DNA of 64,000 bases from Sedimentitalea xiamensis (lineage in GTDB: Bacteria > Pseudomonadota > Alphaproteobacteria > Rhodobacterales > Rhodobacteraceae). The translations under genes were made by a program, and so were the position numbers. Location of the stretch: the NCBI RefSeq assembly GCF_030164465.1, contig NZ_JASNJE010000017.1, positions 1-64,000 on the forward strand. The letters run 5' to 3'. How positions within the stretch are numbered: position 1 is the stretch's first letter; each line of letters starts with the position of its first letter. Under the pieces are notes generated by a model. It searched no databases. It saw only the letters and a program-made list of their open reading frames with translations, and was not told where the DNA came from. This document shows, piece by piece, positions 32,694 through 41,969 of the stretch.

Positions 32694-33656
32694 GTGATCC
32701 ATCGTCGATTGACGGTCTTTCTATTGGCCTTGCTGTTCACCCTGCCACTGGGCGGGCGCGTTTCGGCAGAGGCCCCGTTGCAGGTTGTCGCGACCACCGG
32801 CATGATCGCCGACGCCGCGCGGCAGGTCGGCGGCGACCTGGTCGAGGTTCGGGCCCTGATGGGACCGGGGGTCGATCCGCACGGCTACCGGCAGACCCGG
32901 ACGGACATCGTCGCCATGACCCGCGCCGATCTGGTCCTGTGGCACGGTCTTTATCTCGAAGCGCAGATGGAGGATTTCTTCGGGGACCTGTCGCGCAAGC
33001 GAAATGTGGTCGCCGTGGCCGAAGCCCTGCCCCGCGACGACCTGCGCCGGCATGCGGATTACGAAGACAAGTTCGACCCGCATGTCTGGATGTCCCCGGT
33101 CCTCTGGAAGCAGGTGGTGCGTCAGGTTCAGGCCGCTCTCGCGGAAACACGCCCCGAAGATGCGGAGGTCTTCGCCGCCAATGCCGAAACGCATCTCGCC
33201 GAACTCGATGCCCTGGCGGCCTATGCGGAAACCAGCATGGCGCGGGTTCCGGACGCCAATCGCGTCCTTCTGACCGCGCATGACGCGTTTGGATATTTCG
33301 GCGACGCCTACGGTGTCGAAGTTCTGGGCATTCAGGGAATATCGACCGAAAGCGAGGCCGGCCTGAACCGGATAGGAGCCCTCGTCGACATGCTGGTTGC
33401 GCGCGGGATCTCTGCCGTCTTCGTGGAAACATCCGTGTCCGACCGCAATATCCGCGCCATTATCGAAGGGGCGGCGGCCAAGGGTCACGCGGTGACGATC
33501 GGCGGCGAACTGTTCAGCGATGCGATGGGTCCGGAAGGGACCTACGAAGGCACTTATGTGGGCATGATCGACCACAACGTCACGGTCATCGCAGCCGCGC
33601 TGGGGGCGGATGTCCCGGCGCGCGGGATGTCCGGCAAACTGTCGGCGGGGTCCTGA
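32694..33656 (+). CDS. Metal ABC transporter substrate-binding protein (TroA/MntC type)
   Basis: A GTG at 32694 (TTGGAG upstream) gives 320 residues with a signal peptide (about 1-25, ending GRVSA). Metal-ligand regions of cluster A-I binding proteins are visible: GVDPHGYRQTRTDI, FDPHVWMSP, TAHDAFGYFGDAYG, and MIDHNVTVIAAALG near the C-terminus. No histidine-rich loop is present, which argues for Mn/Fe rather than Zn scavenging of the ZnuA type. It delivers the metal to the permeases encoded downstream. It is first in a four-gene operon with 1-bp gaps or overlaps. Confidence 0.88.
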   Translation: MIHRRLTVFLLALLFTLPLGGRVSAEAPLQVVATTGMIADAARQVGGDLVEVRALMGPGVDPHGYRQTRTDIVAMTRADLVLWHGLYLEAQMEDFFGDLSRKRNVVAVAEALPRDDLRRHADYEDKFDPHVWMSPVLWKQVVRQVQAALAETRPEDAEVFAANAETHLAELDALAAYAETSMARVPDANRVLLTAHDAFGYFGDAYGVEVLGIQGISTESEAGLNRIGALVDMLVARGISAVFVETSVSDRNIRAIIEGAAAKGHAVTIGGELFSDAMGPEGTYEGTYVGMIDHNVTVIAAALGADVPARGMSGKLSAGS

Positions 33657-33657
33657 G

Positions 33658-34464
33658 ATGACGGTCGAACTCGCAGCTTCGCATGGGCGGCGTCCCGAAG
33701 TTGTCGTCCCGGAAAACAGTCCGTTGACGATCCGGGGGCTGACCGTGTCCTACGGTCACAAGCCCGCGGTTTTTTCTGTCGATATGACGGTGATGCCCGG
33801 TGCGATGACGGCGATCATCGGGCCGAATGGCGCCGGTAAATCCACGCTGCTCAAGGCCGCGCTGGGTATCGCGAAGCCCCTGTCCGGTCAGGTCCGGGTG
33901 TTCGGCAAACCGCTGGACCGGCAACGCGCACGGGTTGCCTATGTTCCGCAACGCGCCAGCGTCGATTGGGATTTTCCGACGCGGGTGATCGATGTCGTCG
34001 TGATGGGGCTGTATCGACAGCTCGGGCTTTTGGGGCGGTTGCGCGCGTCGCACCGGGCCAGGGCGATGGAATGCCTCGACCGGGTGGGAATGACGGATTT
34101 CGCGGACAGGCAGATCGGTCAGTTGTCCGGCGGGCAGCAGCAGCGCGTGTTCCTGGCGCGCGCGCTGGCCCAGGACGCCGATCTCTACCTGCTGGACGAA
34201 CCTTTTGCCGGTGTCGATGCGGCGACCGAGAAGGCGATCATCGGTGTGCTGAAATCGCTGCGGGCCGAGGGCAGGACCGTTGTCGCGGTGCATCACGATC
34301 TTGCCACCGTGCGCGACTATTTCGACAATGTGTTCCTGATCAACGCCGCAAAGGTGGCCGAGGGACCGGTCGACACGACCTTCACCGCCGAGAACCTGCA
34401 AGCCGCCTATGGCGGGCGTCTGGCGACGGCGCAGGTCGATCAACTGGCGCAGGTCTTGGCCTGA
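33658..34464 (+). CDS. Metal ABC transporter ATP-binding protein (TroB/MntB type)
   Basis: The 268-residue ATPase has Walker A IGPNGAGKSTLLKA, the Q-loop in YVPQRASVDWDFP, the signature QLSGGQQQRVFLARAL, Walker B LYLLDEPFAG and the switch histidine in VAVHHDLATV. The SVDWDFP sequence after the Q-loop is typical of Mn/Zn family ATPases. It energises the two permeases encoded next. The ATG is 1 bp beyond the stop of the binding-protein gene. Confidence 0.93.
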   Translation: MTVELAASHGRRPEVVVPENSPLTIRGLTVSYGHKPAVFSVDMTVMPGAMTAIIGPNGAGKSTLLKAALGIAKPLSGQVRVFGKPLDRQRARVAYVPQRASVDWDFPTRVIDVVVMGLYRQLGLLGRLRASHRARAMECLDRVGMTDFADRQIGQLSGGQQQRVFLARALAQDADLYLLDEPFAGVDAATEKAIIGVLKSLRAEGRTVVAVHHDLATVRDYFDNVFLINAAKVAEGPVDTTFTAENLQAAYGGRLATAQVDQLAQVLA

Positions 34465-34468
34465 TTCC

Positions 34469-35674
34469 ATGATCCGTGACGCGCTGCTGTTGCAACTGGG
34501 CTACAACGCGACGCTGGTCGCCATCGGCGCCACGCTTCTCGGGGTGGCGGCGGGTGTGACTGGAACCTTCCTGTTCCTGCGCAAACGGGCGCTGGTCAGC
34601 GATGCGATCAGCCACGCCACGCTGCCCGGTGTCTGCCTCGCATTCATCGTGATGGTCGCGCTCGGCGGCGATGGGCGCAACCTGGTCGGACTCCTGCTCG
34701 GATCGGCCTTGTCCGCCTGGGTCGGTCTGTTGTGCCTGACCTGGATCGTCCGGAACACGCGCCTTGCCGAAGACGCCGCGATCGGCGCCGTCCTGTCGGT
34801 GTTCTTCGGTCTGGGTATCGTCTTGCTGACGGTCATCCAGACCATGAGCTCGGGCCGGCAGGCGGGGCTGGAAAGCTTTCTTCTCGGGGCCACCGCCGGC
34901 ATGCTCTGGGCCGACGCGATGGTCATCGCGACCGGCGGCGCGTTGACGCTGCTGCTGATTCTGCTGCTGCGCCGCCCCATGACCATGGTGGCCTTCGATC
35001 CCGAATACGCCGCCGCCCGTGGCCTGCCGGTCACGTGGATCGACCTTGCCATGATGGGGCTGGTCATGGCGGTCACGGTGGTCGGGCTGAAGATCGTCGG
35101 CCTGATCCTGATCGTCGCGCTGCTGATCATCCCCGCCGTCACCGCCCGCTTCTGGACCGAACGGAGCGACAGGGTCGTCCTGTTGTCCGGCCTGCTCGGC
35201 GGGCTGTCATGCTATGTCGGGGCCGCGCTGTCGGCCTCTGCGCCGAACCTGCCGACCGGCCCGATCATCGTGCTGGTCAGTTTCGGGTTCTTCGCTGTGT
35301 CGCTGTTTCTTGCACCCAGCCGCGGCGTTCTCGCCGCCGTCCTGCGTCATTTCCGGTTCCAGAGGCGTGTGCATCTGCGCCAGGGGCTTCTGGCGCTCGC
35401 ACAGGGCCAGCCGATCTACGAACGGCTGACAAACCGCCTGCTGCGGCGGGCCGGGCTGGTGCGCCCGGACGGGGTCGCGACGGATAAAGGCCGCGCCCGC
35501 GCCGCCAAGGCATTGCGAGACGAACGCCGCTGGCAGGTCATCCGCGCCGATCAGGCCTACGAAGCCGCCGCGGCGCTTTACGACGGGTTGCGCGATATCG
35601 AAACCGTTCTCACATCCGATCAGATCGCCGAGGTCGACCGAACCATCGGCGGGCCGCGCGGGGTGCCGGCATGA
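34469..35674 (+). CDS. Metal ABC transporter permease with C-terminal cytoplasmic extension (TroC type)
   Basis: The 401-residue protein has about eight membrane segments in residues 1-295, with family motifs ALVSDAISHATLPG and GLKIVGLILIVALLIIPAVTARFW. The remaining roughly 105 residues are soluble and charged (RFQRRVHLRQGLLALAQGQ, LLRRAGLVRPDG, ATDKGRARAAKALRDERRW). They resemble a degenerate winged-helix/DtxR-like tail as seen in some TroC proteins; DNA binding is doubtful. It starts 4 bp after the ATPase gene and overlaps the second permease by 4 bp. Confidence 0.9.
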   Translation: MIRDALLLQLGYNATLVAIGATLLGVAAGVTGTFLFLRKRALVSDAISHATLPGVCLAFIVMVALGGDGRNLVGLLLGSALSAWVGLLCLTWIVRNTRLAEDAAIGAVLSVFFGLGIVLLTVIQTMSSGRQAGLESFLLGATAGMLWADAMVIATGGALTLLLILLLRRPMTMVAFDPEYAAARGLPVTWIDLAMMGLVMAVTVVGLKIVGLILIVALLIIPAVTARFWTERSDRVVLLSGLLGGLSCYVGAALSASAPNLPTGPIIVLVSFGFFAVSLFLAPSRGVLAAVLRHFRFQRRVHLRQGLLALAQGQPIYERLTNRLLRRAGLVRPDGVATDKGRARAAKALRDERRWQVIRADQAYEAAAALYDGLRDIETVLTSDQIAEVDRTIGGPRGVPA

Positions 35675-36600
35675 TCGGGTCCGAATTCGTCCCCCTGTCG
35701 CTGACTCCCCTGCTGATCGGGATCTTCGCCGCCGTCGCCTGCGCGTTGCCGGGCAACTTTCTCGTGCTGCGGCGCCAGGCGCTGATCGGCGACGCGATCA
35801 GCCATGTGGTCCTGCCTGGCATCGTTGTCGCGTTTCTCGCAACCGGCGTGATCTCGTCCTGGCCCATGATGCTGGGCGCGGCCGGTGCAGCCATCGTCGC
35901 CGTCGTCCTGATCGAAGCCATCCGCAGGCTTGGCCGCATCGAACCCGGCGCGGCGATGGGGGTGGTCTTCACCAGCATGTTCGCGGGCGGGGTTCTTCTT
36001 CTGGAGCTATCCGACACGTCCAACGTGCACCTGGACGTGGAACATGCGCTTTTCGGCAATCTTGAAAGCCTGATCTGGCTGGATGCGACCGGCTGGGCTT
36101 CGCTGCTGGACCGGGAGGCGCTGCTTGGCCTGCCGGTGGAACTGCCGCGCATGGCGGCGACCCTGCTCGCGGTCGCGGTATTCATCCTGCTGTTCTGGCG
36201 GCCGCTCAAGCTGTCCACTTTCGACGAAGGCTTTGCCCGGACGCTGGGCATCCGGACCGGGCTTCTCGGGCTGGCTCTGGTCATCGCGGCGGCGGTCGCC
36301 GCGGTCGCCGCCTTTGACGCGGTCGGTTCCATCATCGTGATCGCGATGTTCATCTGCCCGCCCGCGGCCGCGCGGATGATGACCAACAGGCTGGAACACC
36401 AGATCGCCTGGAGCGTCGTCTTCGCCACCGCCTCGGCCATCGCCGGCTATGTCCTGGCGGGCTACGGACCGCTCTGGTTCGGCGGACAGGACGCGGTCAG
36501 CGCCGCCGGCATGATCGCCACGGTGTCGGGGGTCATTCTGGCCTTGGCGGCCGGGTTCGGACCTTGCCGGACCCGGTCGGGCGCGCCGCAGGGCGGTTGA
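35671..36600 (+). CDS. Metal ABC transporter permease (TroD type)
   Basis: The 309-residue protein is a second ABC-3 family permease with about eight membrane segments. It contains ALIGDAISHVVLPGIVVAF, SLIWLDATGW and the C-terminal VGSIIVIAMFICPPAAARMM motif. It would form a heterodimeric channel with the preceding permease, the TroCD arrangement. It has no long cytoplasmic tail. The ATGA overlap at 35671-35674 shows coupling. It is the last gene of the operon and is convergent with the helicase gene (4 bp apart). Confidence 0.92.
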   Translation: MIGSEFVPLSLTPLLIGIFAAVACALPGNFLVLRRQALIGDAISHVVLPGIVVAFLATGVISSWPMMLGAAGAAIVAVVLIEAIRRLGRIEPGAAMGVVFTSMFAGGVLLLELSDTSNVHLDVEHALFGNLESLIWLDATGWASLLDREALLGLPVELPRMAATLLAVAVFILLFWRPLKLSTFDEGFARTLGIRTGLLGLALVIAAAVAAVAAFDAVGSIIVIAMFICPPAAARMMTNRLEHQIAWSVVFATASAIAGYVLAGYGPLWFGGQDAVSAAGMIATVSGVILALAAGFGPCRTRSGAPQGG

Positions 36601-36604
36601 CCCG

Positions 36605-38617
36605 TCAGGTCTTCGGGGCGCGCCGCTTCGGCGGCTTGTCGCCGCCCCTTGCCTTGGCCGCGGCGGCGCGGGCCTTGTTCTTCTTGCTGTTCGGCTTGCC
36701 GACCGGAGGCGCCTTGGACGGAGCCTGCCCAGGCGCCTTGGGTTTGCGTTTTCCCGCCTGATTGTGCGCCGCTGGCTTGCCCCGGCGCTTTGCCGGAGAC
36801 ACCAGCCCGTCCGCAGTTGCAATGTCCGGCATGGGCGCTCGTTTTCCGGCGGCGCTGCCGGGTTCGGGTTTCCGGGGTCTGGGTGATGGAGGCGCGCTTG
36901 GTTTCCTGCGTTCGGGACCCGGGGGTTCGGGCTGCGGAGCGGGTCTTGGCGCGATCCGGTCGGGACCGGTTTCCTTCCGTCCCGGTCCGCGACGGTGTTC
37001 GGGCGACCGGGCAAACGGTTTCGCGCCGGGTTTGGACGACCCGCCGAGGTCGGGCGTCCTGTCCAGGCGCGTCACCCGTGCATCGCCTTCGACGGTCATG
37101 TCCGGGCCAAGTGCGGCGAGGAACCGGTCGGCGCTGCTTTCCAGGATTTCGACATAGCTTTCGTCATAGTGGATGCGTATGGCGCCAATGTCGTCCTTGG
37201 AGATGTTTCCGGCCTTGCAGAGGATCGGAAGCAGGCGACGGGTTTCGATTCCGGCTTTCTTGCCGCCGGCGACGGAAAACCAGACGCTGGGGCCGAAGGG
37301 CGCGCGCGGTTCCGGTTTTCCCGCCGGACCCGGCGCCAGCAATTCCTCGGGCGCGGAATGGCGGCTTTCATAGAGCGCGACATAGGCGGCGGCGATCTGC
37401 TCGGCGCTGAACCGGGCGACGAGGGCCTGAGCGGCATCGGTCAGTTCGATCGGCGCGTGCCAGACCGGATCGGCCAGCATCCTGTCCATGTCGCGGGCGC
37501 GGACCGCGTCGGCGGACGGCGCTTCGGCCCATTCGGCGGTCAGCTTGGCGAATTTCAGCAGGCGTTCGCATTTCTTGCGCGCCGCCGGCGGGACGATCAG
37601 GGCGCTGACGCCCTTGCGGCCGGCCCGTCCGGTCCGACCGGAGCGATGCAGAAGCGTTTCATGGCTTGTCGGCAGTTCGGCATGCACCACGAGGTCGAGG
37701 CTGGGCAGGTCGATTCCGCGCGCCGCCACGTCGGTGGCCACACAGACGCGGGCCCGCCCGTCGCGCATGGCCTGCAGCGCATGGGTGCGTTCGGATTGCG
37801 AGAGTTCGCCGGAGAGGGCAACAACCGAAAACCCCCGGTTGGACAACCGTGTCGTCAGCCGGTTCACCATCGCGCGGGTGTTGGCGAAGACCAGCGCATT
37901 CGGCGCTTCGTAGAACCGCAGCACGTTGACGATGGCGTTGTCCACGTCCCGCGGGGCGACTGACAGGGCGCGATATTCGATGTCGCTGTGCTGGCTGGTT
38001 TCGGCGGCGGTGGTGATGCGGATCGCATCGGTCTGGTATTTTCCAGCAAGGTTGGCGATACCGCGCGGCACGGTGGCGGAGAACATCAGCGTCCTGCGGT
38101 CTTCGGGCGCGGCGGCGAGAATGAATTCGAGATCTTCCTGGAAGCCGAGGTCGAGCATTTCGTCGGCCTCGTCCAGAACGATGGCCTTGATGTCCGAAAG
38201 ATCGATCGATCCGCGCATGACATGATCGCGCAGGCGACCCGGCGTGGCGACGACGATATGCGCCCCGCGCTCCAGCGCGCGGCGTTCGTCGCGTATGTCC
38301 ATGCCGCCGACGCAGGACGCGAGATGCGCCCCCGCCCTCCCGTAGAGCCACGCGAGTTCGCGCTTGACCTGCAAGGCCAGTTCACGCGTCGGGGCGATGA
38401 TCAGGGCCAGCGGAGCGGCGGCCGAGGCGAAATGGTCGCCGTCACCCAGGATCGTCGGCGCGATGGCGAGTCCGAAACCGACGGTCTTGCCCGAGCCCGT
38501 CTGGGCCGAAACCAGGAGGTCGGAGCCCGCCAGTTCCGGGTCCGTGACGGCCTGCTGGACCTGGGTCAGGGTGGCGTAGCCTTGCTGCGCGAGCGCATCC
38601 GCGAGAGTCTGTTTCAC
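36605..38617 (-). CDS. DEAD-box ATP-dependent RNA helicase with DbpA-like RNA-binding domain
   Basis: The 670-residue protein has all helicase motifs: SAQTGSGKT (I), APTRELA (Ia), VLDEADEM (II), FSATV (III), ATDVAARGIDLP (V) and HRSGRTGRAGRKG (VI). Residues about 455-530 resemble the DbpA/CsdA RNA-binding domain (AGIETRRLLPILCKAGNI). The last 130 residues are a basic, proline/lysine-rich tail. It probably remodels rRNA or mRNA in ribosome assembly or the cold response. The start codon is GTG at 38617. The gene ends 4 bp from the permease gene, with no room for a separate terminator. Confidence 0.93.
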   Translation of the reverse strand: MKQTLADALAQQGYATLTQVQQAVTDPELAGSDLLVSAQTGSGKTVGFGLAIAPTILGDGDHFASAAAPLALIIAPTRELALQVKRELAWLYGRAGAHLASCVGGMDIRDERRALERGAHIVVATPGRLRDHVMRGSIDLSDIKAIVLDEADEMLDLGFQEDLEFILAAAPEDRRTLMFSATVPRGIANLAGKYQTDAIRITTAAETSQHSDIEYRALSVAPRDVDNAIVNVLRFYEAPNALVFANTRAMVNRLTTRLSNRGFSVVALSGELSQSERTHALQAMRDGRARVCVATDVAARGIDLPSLDLVVHAELPTSHETLLHRSGRTGRAGRKGVSALIVPPAARKKCERLLKFAKLTAEWAEAPSADAVRARDMDRMLADPVWHAPIELTDAAQALVARFSAEQIAAAYVALYESRHSAPEELLAPGPAGKPEPRAPFGPSVWFSVAGGKKAGIETRRLLPILCKAGNISKDDIGAIRIHYDESYVEILESSADRFLAALGPDMTVEGDARVTRLDRTPDLGGSSKPGAKPFARSPEHRRGPGRKETGPDRIAPRPAPQPEPPGPERRKPSAPPSPRPRKPEPGSAAGKRAPMPDIATADGLVSPAKRRGKPAAHNQAGKRKPKAPGQAPSKAPPVGKPNSKKNKARAAAAKARGGDKPPKRRAPKT

Positions 38618-38737
38618 GTCAGGGATCTTTTCAGTGTCGGCACCGGGCGGCGCGATGGGGTCAAGCGACGCTCCCTAGTCGGTCTGGAGGGAAATGTATA
38701 GCGCCATTTCCGCGCCGGGTCCGGCCCCGCACGGGAA

Positions 38738-38809
38738 GGGGGCCAGCCCCCTCTGCCGAAATCCGGGGATTTCGGCATTCACCCCCGGAGTATTTCTGCA
38801 AAGATGAAG
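38738..38809. repeat. Composite intergenic repeat: two hairpins plus conserved GAGTATTT tail (copy 2)
   Basis: Stem GGGGG/CCCCC with loop CCAG (38738-38751) is followed by an 11-bp perfect stem TGCCGAAATCC/GGATTTCGGCA (38754-38777). The 28-nt tail (38782-38809) differs from copy 1 at a single base. It lies 8 bp from the 3' end of the oxoprolinase remnant and downstream of no plus-strand gene. In the minus direction it could terminate that gene. Confidence 0.75.
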
Positions 38810-38816
38810 CCGCGTA

Positions 38817-40091
38817 TCAGGGCGCGCCCCAGCCGCCGCCGCCCGGTGTATGCATGCCGAACACCGCGCCCGATGGCAGGTCGGTCTCATCGTTGCCCTT
38901 GAGGTCGACGTGTCGGCCGTCGGGCAGTTCGGCCCAGTTGACGCCGACCGCGCCGGGAGCGCCGCCATCGACGCCGAAGGGAGGAATTTCGCGGTGCGAG
39001 CAGAGGGTCGTGACCGTCACAGGCGTGAGAAACCGGATCATCCGGGTCGCGCCGCTGCCGCCGGTCCATTTGCCCCTGCCGCCCGATCCTTCGCGTATGC
39101 CAAAGGCTTCGAGGCGGACCGGGAAACGTTTTTCGAGGATCTCCGGGTCGGTCATGCGGGTGTTGGTCATGTGGGTCTGGATCGCGTCGCAGCCATCGAA
39201 CCCCGGTCCCGCGCCGGTGCCGCCGGCGATGGTCTCGTAGTTCTGGAAGTCGTCGTTGCCCCAGACGAAATTGTTCATCGTCGCCTGGCTGCCGGCCATG
39301 ACGTGAAGCGCGCCGAGAAGCGCATTGCACATGGCCTGGCTGACCTCGGTATTGCCGACGATCCCGCCGGCCGGCCCCGACAGGATCGCGTCCTTTCCTT
39401 GAAACAGGCGCGCATCCGTCAATCCGCCGCTCGACTGCATGAACAGCAGCCGTTCGCAGGCCCGCCCCATGTCGAGTGCATCCGCCACCTGGCCGACATA
39501 GCGGCGCAGGATCGGCGAGAGATTGGCATCGACCACGGTGGTGTCGCCGCGCCCGACCAGTTTCGTCAGTTTGCTGACCTCGTGGCTGGTGGAAATCTGG
39601 GTAAGGCCGATCTGGCGCGCCATGTCCGCGACGCGGCGTTCGTGCACCGGGTTGAGATAGGCGTGCAGCCCGGCAACGGCCAGGGCGCGCAACCCTTCGT
39701 CATAGGCCGATTGCCGCGCGGCGGGGGTGGCGGTTTCGTCCAGCGCGCGGATCACCTCGCCATCGGCGCCCAGCCGCTCGTCCATCTCCGCGACCTTCCG
39801 GTAGAGCCGTTCGGGACGGATGATATGCAGATCGAACAGGCGCGGGCAGGTCTGGTAGCCGATTTCAAGCAGGTCGCGGAACCCCTTGGCGATGAGCAGA
39901 AGCACCGGTTCGCCCTTGCGCTCCGGAAGCGCGTTGGTCGCCACGGTCGTGCCCATCCTGACCGCGCGGATCGTATTGTCGGGAAACGGGCCTTCGATCT
40001 CCATCATCTCGCGGATGCCCTGAACTGCGGCGTCGGCATAACGTTCGGGGTTTTCGGACAGCAGTTTGTGAGTCGACCCGATGCCGATCAT
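38817..40091 (-). pseudogene. 5-oxoprolinase (HyuA-HyuB fusion) gene with large internal deletion
   Basis: Intact bacterial 5-oxoprolinases run about 1,200 residues, with a HyuA-like half followed by a HyuB-like half. This frame is only about 424 codons. It begins at [12 protein letters not shown], so the first about 28 residues with the nucleotide-binding DRGGTFTD motif are absent. It continues as HyuA ([21 protein letters not shown]) to [11 protein letters not shown]. At about 39350-39362 it switches directly to the C-terminal part of HyuB ([16 protein letters not shown] to TPGGGGWG). Roughly 700 residues are missing, yet the frame is kept. Function is very unlikely. Confidence 0.75.
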
Positions 40092-40133
40092 TCCGGTGGC
40101 AGAATCGTTGACGGATGTGCTAGGTCTTGCGGT

Positions 40134-41969
40134 ATGGCGCGTACAAACCCCAATATGCACGAAAGCCGCCCGGTTATCCGGCAGTTGGACGACGCGGCGA
40201 TCAATCGGATCGCGGCGGGCGAAGTCGTCGAACGTCCGGCCTCCGCCATCAAGGAACTGGTCGAAAATGCCATCGACGCGGGGGCGCTGCGGATCGGGAT
40301 CGACATCGCGGACGGCGGCAAGACGCTGATCCGGGTGAGCGACGATGGTTGCGGTATTGCGCCCGACGATCTGCCGCTGGCGATGTCCCGCCACGCCACG
40401 TCAAAGATCGACGGAAGCGATCTCCTGAACATCCATACCTTCGGGTTCCGGGGCGAGGCGCTGCCGTCGCTGGGAGCGGTCGGGCGGCTGACGATCACCA
40501 GCCGGGCCGAAGGCGCGGATGCGGCCAGCCTCGGCGTTGCCGGCGGCGAGATGGGGCCGGTCAAGCCGGCGGCCCTGAATGCGGGCACCACCGTCGTGTT
40601 GCGCGATCTCTTCTACGCGACGCCCGCGCGTCTGAAGTTCATGCGCACCGACCGGGCCGAAGCGCAGGCGATTTCCGACGTGGTCAAACGCCTCGCCATG
40701 GCGGAACCGGGCATCGGTTTCATCCTGCGCGACGTATCCGGCGATGGCGAAGGCCGCGCGATGTTCCGGGCCGATCCGGAAACCGGCGACCTGTTCGGGG
40801 CCATGCATCAGAGACTTGGGTCCGTACTCGGGCGGGACTTTGCCGACAATGCGCTGAAGATCGACGCGACCCGCGACGGCATCCGCCTGTTCGGCTACGC
40901 CGCTCTGCCCACCTATTCGCGCGGGGCCGCGGTGGCGCAATACCTTTTCGTCAATGGCCGGCCGGTGCGCGACAAGATGCTGACCGGCGCGCTACGGGCG
41001 GCCTATTTCGATTTCCTGTCTCGTGACCGGCACCCCGTGGCCGCGCTTTTCCTCGATTGCGACCCGACTCTGGTGGATGTGAATGTGCACCCGGCCAAGT
41101 CCGAGGTGCGGTTTCGCGATCCGGGCGTCGCGCGGGGCCTGATCGTGTCTGCGCTGCGTCACGCGCTGGCCGAGGCCGGGCATCGGGCGTCCTCTACCGT
41201 TGCACATGCGGCGCTGGGTGCGATGCGGCCCGAACCGACCGGCGCGCGGGTCTACCAGATGGATCGTCCGTCAATGGGAGCCCGGACCGCCGCCTATGTC
41301 GCGCAGGCGCCGGGCTTTGCCGAGCTGGCCGAAAGCTTCAGCGCTCGCCTGGTCGAGGTTCCGGAGGAACCGGAGGCGGCGCCGGAGACGCTGCCGCTGG
41401 GGGCCGCACGCGGGCAGGTGCACGAGAATTACATCATCGCGCAGACGGCCACCGGCATGGTGATCGTCGATCAGCACGCGGCGCATGAGCGTCTCGTCTA
41501 TGAGAAACTGAAACGCCAGATGGCGGAAAACGGGGCGGCGGCGCAGGCGCTTCTGATCCCCGAAATCATAGATTTTCCGGAGGCGGATTGCGCGCAGGTG
41601 ATGGAGATCGCGGAGGATCTGGCGCGGCTGGGCCTGACCGTCGAGCCGTTCGGCGGCGGTGCGGTGGCGGTGCGGGAAACCCCGGCGATCCTGGGCGAGG
41701 TCGACGCGGGCGCGATGCTGCGCGACATACTGGATGAACTGGCCGATCAGGGGAGCAGCCAGACCGTGCAGGCGCGGATCGAGGCGATCCTGAGCCGCGT
41801 GGCCTGCCACGGCTCTGTCCGTTCGGGCCGCCGGATGCGGGCCGAGGAGATGAACGCGCTGTTGCGCGAGATGGAGGCGACGCCGCATTCCGGGCAATGC
41901 AACCATGGGCGGCCCACCTATGTGGAACTGAAGCTGGCCGATATCGAACGGCTGTTCGGGCGCACATGA
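40134..41969 (+). CDS. mutL: DNA mismatch repair endonuclease MutL
   Basis: The 611-residue protein has the GHKL ATPase N-terminal domain ([33 protein letters not shown]) and a dimerisation C-terminal domain. The C-terminus carries the metal-binding endonuclease motif [12 protein letters not shown], plus [12 protein letters not shown] and CNHGRPT, so it is a nicking MutL of the type used where MutH is absent. The start at 40134 has AGGT 9 bp upstream; an ATG at 40155 is an alternative. It is divergent from the oxoprolinase remnant by 42 bp and overlaps rmuC by 4 bp. Confidence 0.95.

Follow-up and report, generated by a model that had tools for sequence, protein, structure and literature searches.

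An in-frame remnant of a fused HyuA-HyuB oxoprolinase in Sedimentitalea xiamensis: a probable deletion pseudogene in a genome that carries PxpABC

The stretch of DNA analysed here, referred to below as the window, comprised the first 64 kb of the 84.6 kb contig NZ_JASNJE010000017.1 of the marine bacterium Sedimentitalea xiamensis, whose genome (G000; assembly GCF_030164465.1) measures 4.75 Mb in 90 contigs and is 99.97% complete. On the minus strand of the window lies an open reading frame of 424 codons in which the N-terminal half of a HyuA-type protein is joined to the C-terminal end of a HyuB-type protein, and which very probably represents a remnant of a fused ATP-dependent oxoprolinase/hydantoinase. 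It was compared mainly with the intact protein of a congener, G001 (1192 residues). G001-G004 are four other genomes of the genus, and the remaining G and L numbers are genome and locus labels. The frame, its two kept parts and the two deletion junctions were as follows.

38817..40091, minus strand: remnant of a fused HyuA-HyuB oxoprolinase, open over 424 codons (translation and Pfam)
39354..40085, minus strand: kept HyuA part, G001 residues ~28-268 (82% identity to G001)
38820..39362, minus strand: kept HyuB C-terminal part, G001 residues ~1015-1192 (91% identity to G001)
39339..39371, minus strand: junction of the internal deletion, 746 codons lost, flanks alike in intact relatives (comparison with intact relatives)
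40073..40091, minus strand: junction of the 5' deletion, ~149 bp net relative to G001, with loss of the ancestral start codon and of DRGGTFTD (comparison with relatives)

Translation of the window from 40091 to 38817 gave a product of 424 residues with an ATG start and no internal stop, and the stop-free frame extended further upstream to a GTG at 40394, within mutL on the opposite strand. Pfam matched Hydant_A_N at protein residues 6-161 (profile 24-175 of 176, the first 23 profile positions being absent), Hydantoinase_A at 181-253 (profile 1-75 of 291, its first quarter) and Hydantoinase_B at 240-424 (profile 320-519 of 519, its last two fifths). The two halves matched with Pfam E-values of 5e-58 and 7.5e-40, and the DNA to either side of the internal junction matched the orthologous locus, which puts the observation far beyond chance. 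The complete Hydant_A_N, Hydantoinase_A and Hydantoinase_B domains of a fused oxoprolinase/hydantoinase were lacking in the remnant; all three were matched nearly in full by the intact G001 protein. A preliminary description of this DNA had placed the passage from HyuA into HyuB sequence at about 39350-39362, which was borne out by the open frame and the order of the Pfam matches. It had also estimated that about 700 residues were lost without breaking the frame. The frame was indeed kept, but the figure was slightly low, as the internal loss covers G001 residues 269-1014, or 746 codons in frame, and a further ~28 residues are gone at the N-terminus. Altogether, 417 of the 1192 aligned residues were kept, approximately 65% of the protein having been lost.

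All five catalytic motifs that were checked fall in the deleted parts. In G001 numbering, these are the phosphate motifs DRGGTFTD at 10 and DMGGTSTD at 285, the adenosine motif GADPGP at 346, and the His/Asp-bearing HyuB motifs HVPVHLG at 741 and RGHHADIGG at 804. The absence of DRGGTFTD agreed with the N-terminal nucleotide motif that had earlier been described as missing. The phosphate, adenosine and metal sites were assigned their roles from PMC8453981; HVPVHLG and RGHHADIGG may correspond to the metal-binding Asp-His-Asp-His tetrad of CapB, an equation made by reading and not by alignment. Neither the ATP site (two phosphate motifs and the adenosine motif) nor the HyuB metal site was found in the remnant, which, judged by its sequence, is predicted to be unable to bind ATP or metal in the known way.

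The points joined by the internal deletion are separated by 2238 bp in G001, G002, G004 and L118; in L111 the distance is 2235 bp, and both values are divisible by three. In the five intact relatives, 14-17 of the 22 bases before both joined points were identical and in the same codon register, while the exact shared run at the join itself was only 4-5 bases. The frame survived the deletion because the similar stretches that were joined share codon register. Slippage or recombination at this short similarity is a plausible, not a proven, origin of the internal deletion. Through the 5' deletion the gene lost its start codon, the stretch upstream of it and about 28 N-terminal residues, and the nearest in-frame ATG (40091) corresponds to intergenic sequence in G004. 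G001, G002 and G004 share a TTGACA-like upstream element, a putative promoter, that G000 lacks; a promoter scan found no promoter-like site in 38700-40400, nor any at the start of the intact relative.

The same observations bear on the possibility of an assembly artefact, in which an intact gene was collapsed between short similar sequences, leaving the full gene present in the molecule. The join does lie where the flanks resemble each other (14-17 of 22 bases), in a genome divided into 90 contigs, but the similar stretch is rather short to cause a misassembly, the same gene was hit by a second, separate deletion, and the flanking sequence shows decay of a kind that is not an effect of assembly error. 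When the assembled contigs were searched with the full congener protein, the missing middle of 746 codons did not turn up in any other contig of this nearly complete assembly; the search recovered only the two ends of the protein and distant paralogues at 31-36% identity. The collapsed assembly that had been proposed was not borne out, and with the middle absent, a second deletion and the substitutions described below, we regard it as highly improbable. A second intact copy, also contemplated earlier, was not present in the fused type. The remnant itself matched its own genome five times, four of these being distant HyuA/HyuB paralogues at 31-35% identity.

Intact orthologues were found in the same chromosomal place in relatives, as expected of a pseudogene. 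The place is defined by two neighbours.

40134..41966, plus strand: mutL, divergent neighbour, conserved in intact relatives (Pfam MutL_C, DNA_mis_repair)
36605..38617, minus strand: DEAD-box RNA helicase with a DbpA-like domain, downstream neighbour (Pfam DEAD, Helicase_C, DbpA)

An intact fused oxoprolinase stands between mutL and the DEAD-box helicase, where the remnant lies, in G001, G002 and L111, and beside mutL in L118. In G004 it was intact as far as readable, being split over two contig ends. In G003 the gene was wholly gone, leaving mutL and the helicase ~275 bp apart (L131 9987-10262). Scanning named genomes yielded 243 relatives, and the 80 best loci among them were kept for frame comparison. 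Among these 80, one long frame covered all or nearly all of the protein in 75, two were broken (L071, L109), three were cut (L086, L114, L115), and none carried the collapsed join. The two broken loci, 4779-8563 of L071 and 4731-8461 of L109 (metagenome-assembled genomes of Roseovarius and of Rhodobacteraceae, respectively), had the oxoprolinase split over shifted frames, reflecting either decay or sequencing errors. A search of 394 family genomes for the junction pattern, allowing up to 3 mismatches, returned four matches, namely G000 and three that share one identical sequence and were read as intact HyuB; this reading was checked for G115 only, where the match sits within the full-length fused oxoprolinase match. 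G002, G003 and G004, which the search omitted, were read directly.

Substitutions in the kept parts provided a further line of evidence. Unique changes were counted in seven close sequences, at sites where all others agree. The ratio of amino-acid to synonymous changes was 19:3 in G000, compared with 5:6 in G001, 6:15 in G002 and 3:6 in G004; against the pooled 14:27 of these three congeners, Fisher's test gave 7.4e-5. Such an excess points to the relaxed constraint of a pseudogene, with codon-position ratios giving a mixed picture. Six of the 19 amino-acid changes in G000 were radical (L>P, R>C, L>R twice, R>P and Y>N). The more distant L111 and L118 also had many unique amino-acid changes (ratios of 16:7 and 18:5), but these were milder, with 3 and 2 radical changes against the 6 in G000. 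With both parts pooled, the codon-position ratio of G000 (0.092) was the highest of 13, the others ranging from 0.028 to 0.079; the same ratio for mutL of G000 was unremarkable (0.089, range 0.059-0.202). G000 also broke 4 of 139 columns that are invariant in the others, one of them being the join itself, and G001, G002 and G004 broke 0. This test is weak alone, the far relatives L101 and L061 each breaking 3, and where conservation reached 97% or more, L101 and L120 broke 7 and 6 columns against 5 in G000.

Several results weighed against decay. The excess of amino-acid changes was weaker when all six other sequences were used (19:3 vs 56:54, Fisher 0.002). In the HyuA part L050 had a higher codon-position ratio than G000, and in the HyuB part 6 of the 12 others did. 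Pairwise ratios of non-synonymous to synonymous change (dN/dS) for G000 were well below 1 (0.03-0.20), which implies either a recent inactivation or an incomplete loss of constraint. All 424 codons still form an open frame, and the HyuB part keeps the high identity to G001 given above. An open frame is nevertheless weak evidence of retention because few point changes here create stops. Their fraction was 2.4%, and the expected chance of the frame being open after 20-40 changes is 38-62%, rising to 51-72% if transitions alone occurred. From the balance of these patterns we concluded that constraint on the remnant appears to have been lost recently.

The preliminary description had left open whether the gene was in decay or encoded a minimal protein retained for another role. 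The latter would act, for example, as a scaffold, a regulator or an inhibitor of other Hyu-type enzymes, and the frame that stays open through both junctions, together with the conserved C-terminal sequence that remains, is what such a protein would show. Amino-acid changes in excess and often radical, the loss of the ancestral start region, the absence of a stop that chance alone would give in 38-72% of cases with 20-40 random point changes, and a join seen only in G000 (in none of the loci kept, and no other true case in the 394 genomes at a tolerance of only 3 mismatches) argue against it, and we hold retention to be very doubtful. Equally little weight is given to its more specific form, a small stable protein made of an incomplete HyuA lobe and the HyuB C-end, translated from a new upstream start and having its own role, such as binding or regulating HyuAB paralogues elsewhere in the genome.

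The decaying gene is the favoured alternative because the gene was hit by two separate deletions, has lost its start codon and the five catalytic motifs that were checked, and carries private radical changes, and because none of the 80 loci kept shows the collapsed form. The sequence evidence makes it very likely that the 424-codon frame is a pseudogene of the orthologous fused ATP-dependent oxoprolinase, made in place by two deletions. The remnant is collinear with both ends of the congener protein and occupies the same chromosomal place, and it differs from the fused enzyme in being without most of the protein, the five checked motifs and the start. As in other pseudogenes formed by deletion between short similar sequences, the junction lies in similar sequence, is found in one genome only, and is accompanied by accumulating substitutions; unlike them, the remnant happens to stay in frame, and a gene caller would list a protein. 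An internal deletion of 746 codons joined two similar stretches in one codon register and kept the frame, a second deletion removed the upstream region, the start codon and the N-terminal phosphate loop, and the remnant is accumulating substitutions. The proposed reason why the loss was tolerated is PxpABC, which is annotated for the same reaction but is unrelated, and whose genes lie elsewhere in the genome.

L134 7063-7905, contig C12, minus strand: pxpA (Pfam PF03746 over cut-off; NCBIfam over two subfamily cut-offs)
L134 6362-7066, contig C12, minus strand: pxpB (Pfam PF02682 over cut-off; below the NCBI equivalog cut-off)
L134 5352-6530, contig C12, minus strand: pxpC (Pfam PF02626 over cut-off; below the NCBI equivalog cut-off)

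PxpABC is the prokaryotic 5-oxoprolinase of Niehaus and colleagues (2017), as cited in PMC13274462; the latter gives the eukaryotic-type 5-oxoprolinase in 115 of 984 genomes. The three genes are adjacent in G000, where PxpABC is annotated for the same reaction as the fused enzyme and is its proposed replacement, not its relative. Within L134 1567-10224 they are flanked on one side by a UbiA-family gene and its neighbours and on the other by a CobQ-like gene. Within the genus, G001 and G002, which kept the fused gene, had no match to any of the three Pxp Pfam families, and G000 and G003 had all three pxp genes, G003 being without the fused gene. In G003, pxpA is ~12 kb from pxpB and pxpC, and the surroundings differ from those in G000. 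Trees of mutL grouped G003 with G002 and not with G000 (support 77 and 88), and the losses in G000 and G003 therefore look independent.

The distribution of the two systems was followed in 120 family genomes, each at least 90% complete, from 119 genera. PxpA was called by PF03746 and the fused enzyme by a match to the G001 protein with E up to 1e-150; that both searches covered the same 120 genomes was inferred from genome labels and completeness values, and the fused search scored just the five best candidates in many of the genomes. PxpA was found in 80 genomes and the fused enzyme in 48, with both in 10, the fused enzyme only in 38, PxpA only in 70 and neither in 2 (Fisher 1.5e-19, uncorrected for shared ancestry among genera). 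In this sample, the two are nearly mutually exclusive. The fused matches, with identities between 48% and 100%, may belong to more than one subtype; the full-length ones of G038, G093 and G115 each had one internal stop, and those of G023, G034 and G064 were in pieces or partial.

On these grounds, it is reasonably likely that loss of the fused gene was tolerated because PxpABC was present, and the acquisition of pxpABC may have come first and the deletion second. Four points weigh against this redundancy. The 5-oxoproline substrate of the fused enzyme is itself putative; PxpA passes subfamily cut-offs only, and PxpB and PxpC fall below the NCBI equivalog cut-offs; the 10 genomes mentioned above hold both systems; and G004 (85% complete) has the fused gene with pxpB and the edge of pxpC, with no PxpA match. 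The gene could instead have been lost by chance or a change of habitat, PxpABC being unrelated to the loss, an explanation that differs in cause only and that is helped by a genus sample of five genomes in which one, G004, does not fit neatly. The near-exclusive distribution over 119 genera, the presence of PxpA, PxpB and PxpC together in both genus members that lost the gene, and two losses that look independent in the mutL trees argue against it, leaving this explanation possible and the less likely of the two.

Pseudogene formation by deletion is well known, as is the replacement of an enzyme by an unrelated one that catalyses the same reaction, and the remnant is a real but ordinary finding. 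The genus provides a snapshot of one enzyme fading in the presence of another that is unrelated but annotated for that reaction: the fused gene is intact in G001 and G002, has collapsed in G000 and is gone in G003. The fused HyuA-HyuB form is presumably that of the human and yeast OPLAH type, and its near-exclusive distribution relative to PxpA supports the fused marine enzyme being a true 5-oxoprolinase. The remnant also serves as a warning that a gene collapsed in frame can be annotated as a working oxoprolinase despite its lost catalytic motifs.

An ABC transporter set at 33655-36597 of the window (an ATPase and two ABC-3 permeases) adjoins the locus. Both permeases, absent from the 19 kb read of G003, also lie beside the locus in G001, G002 and G004.
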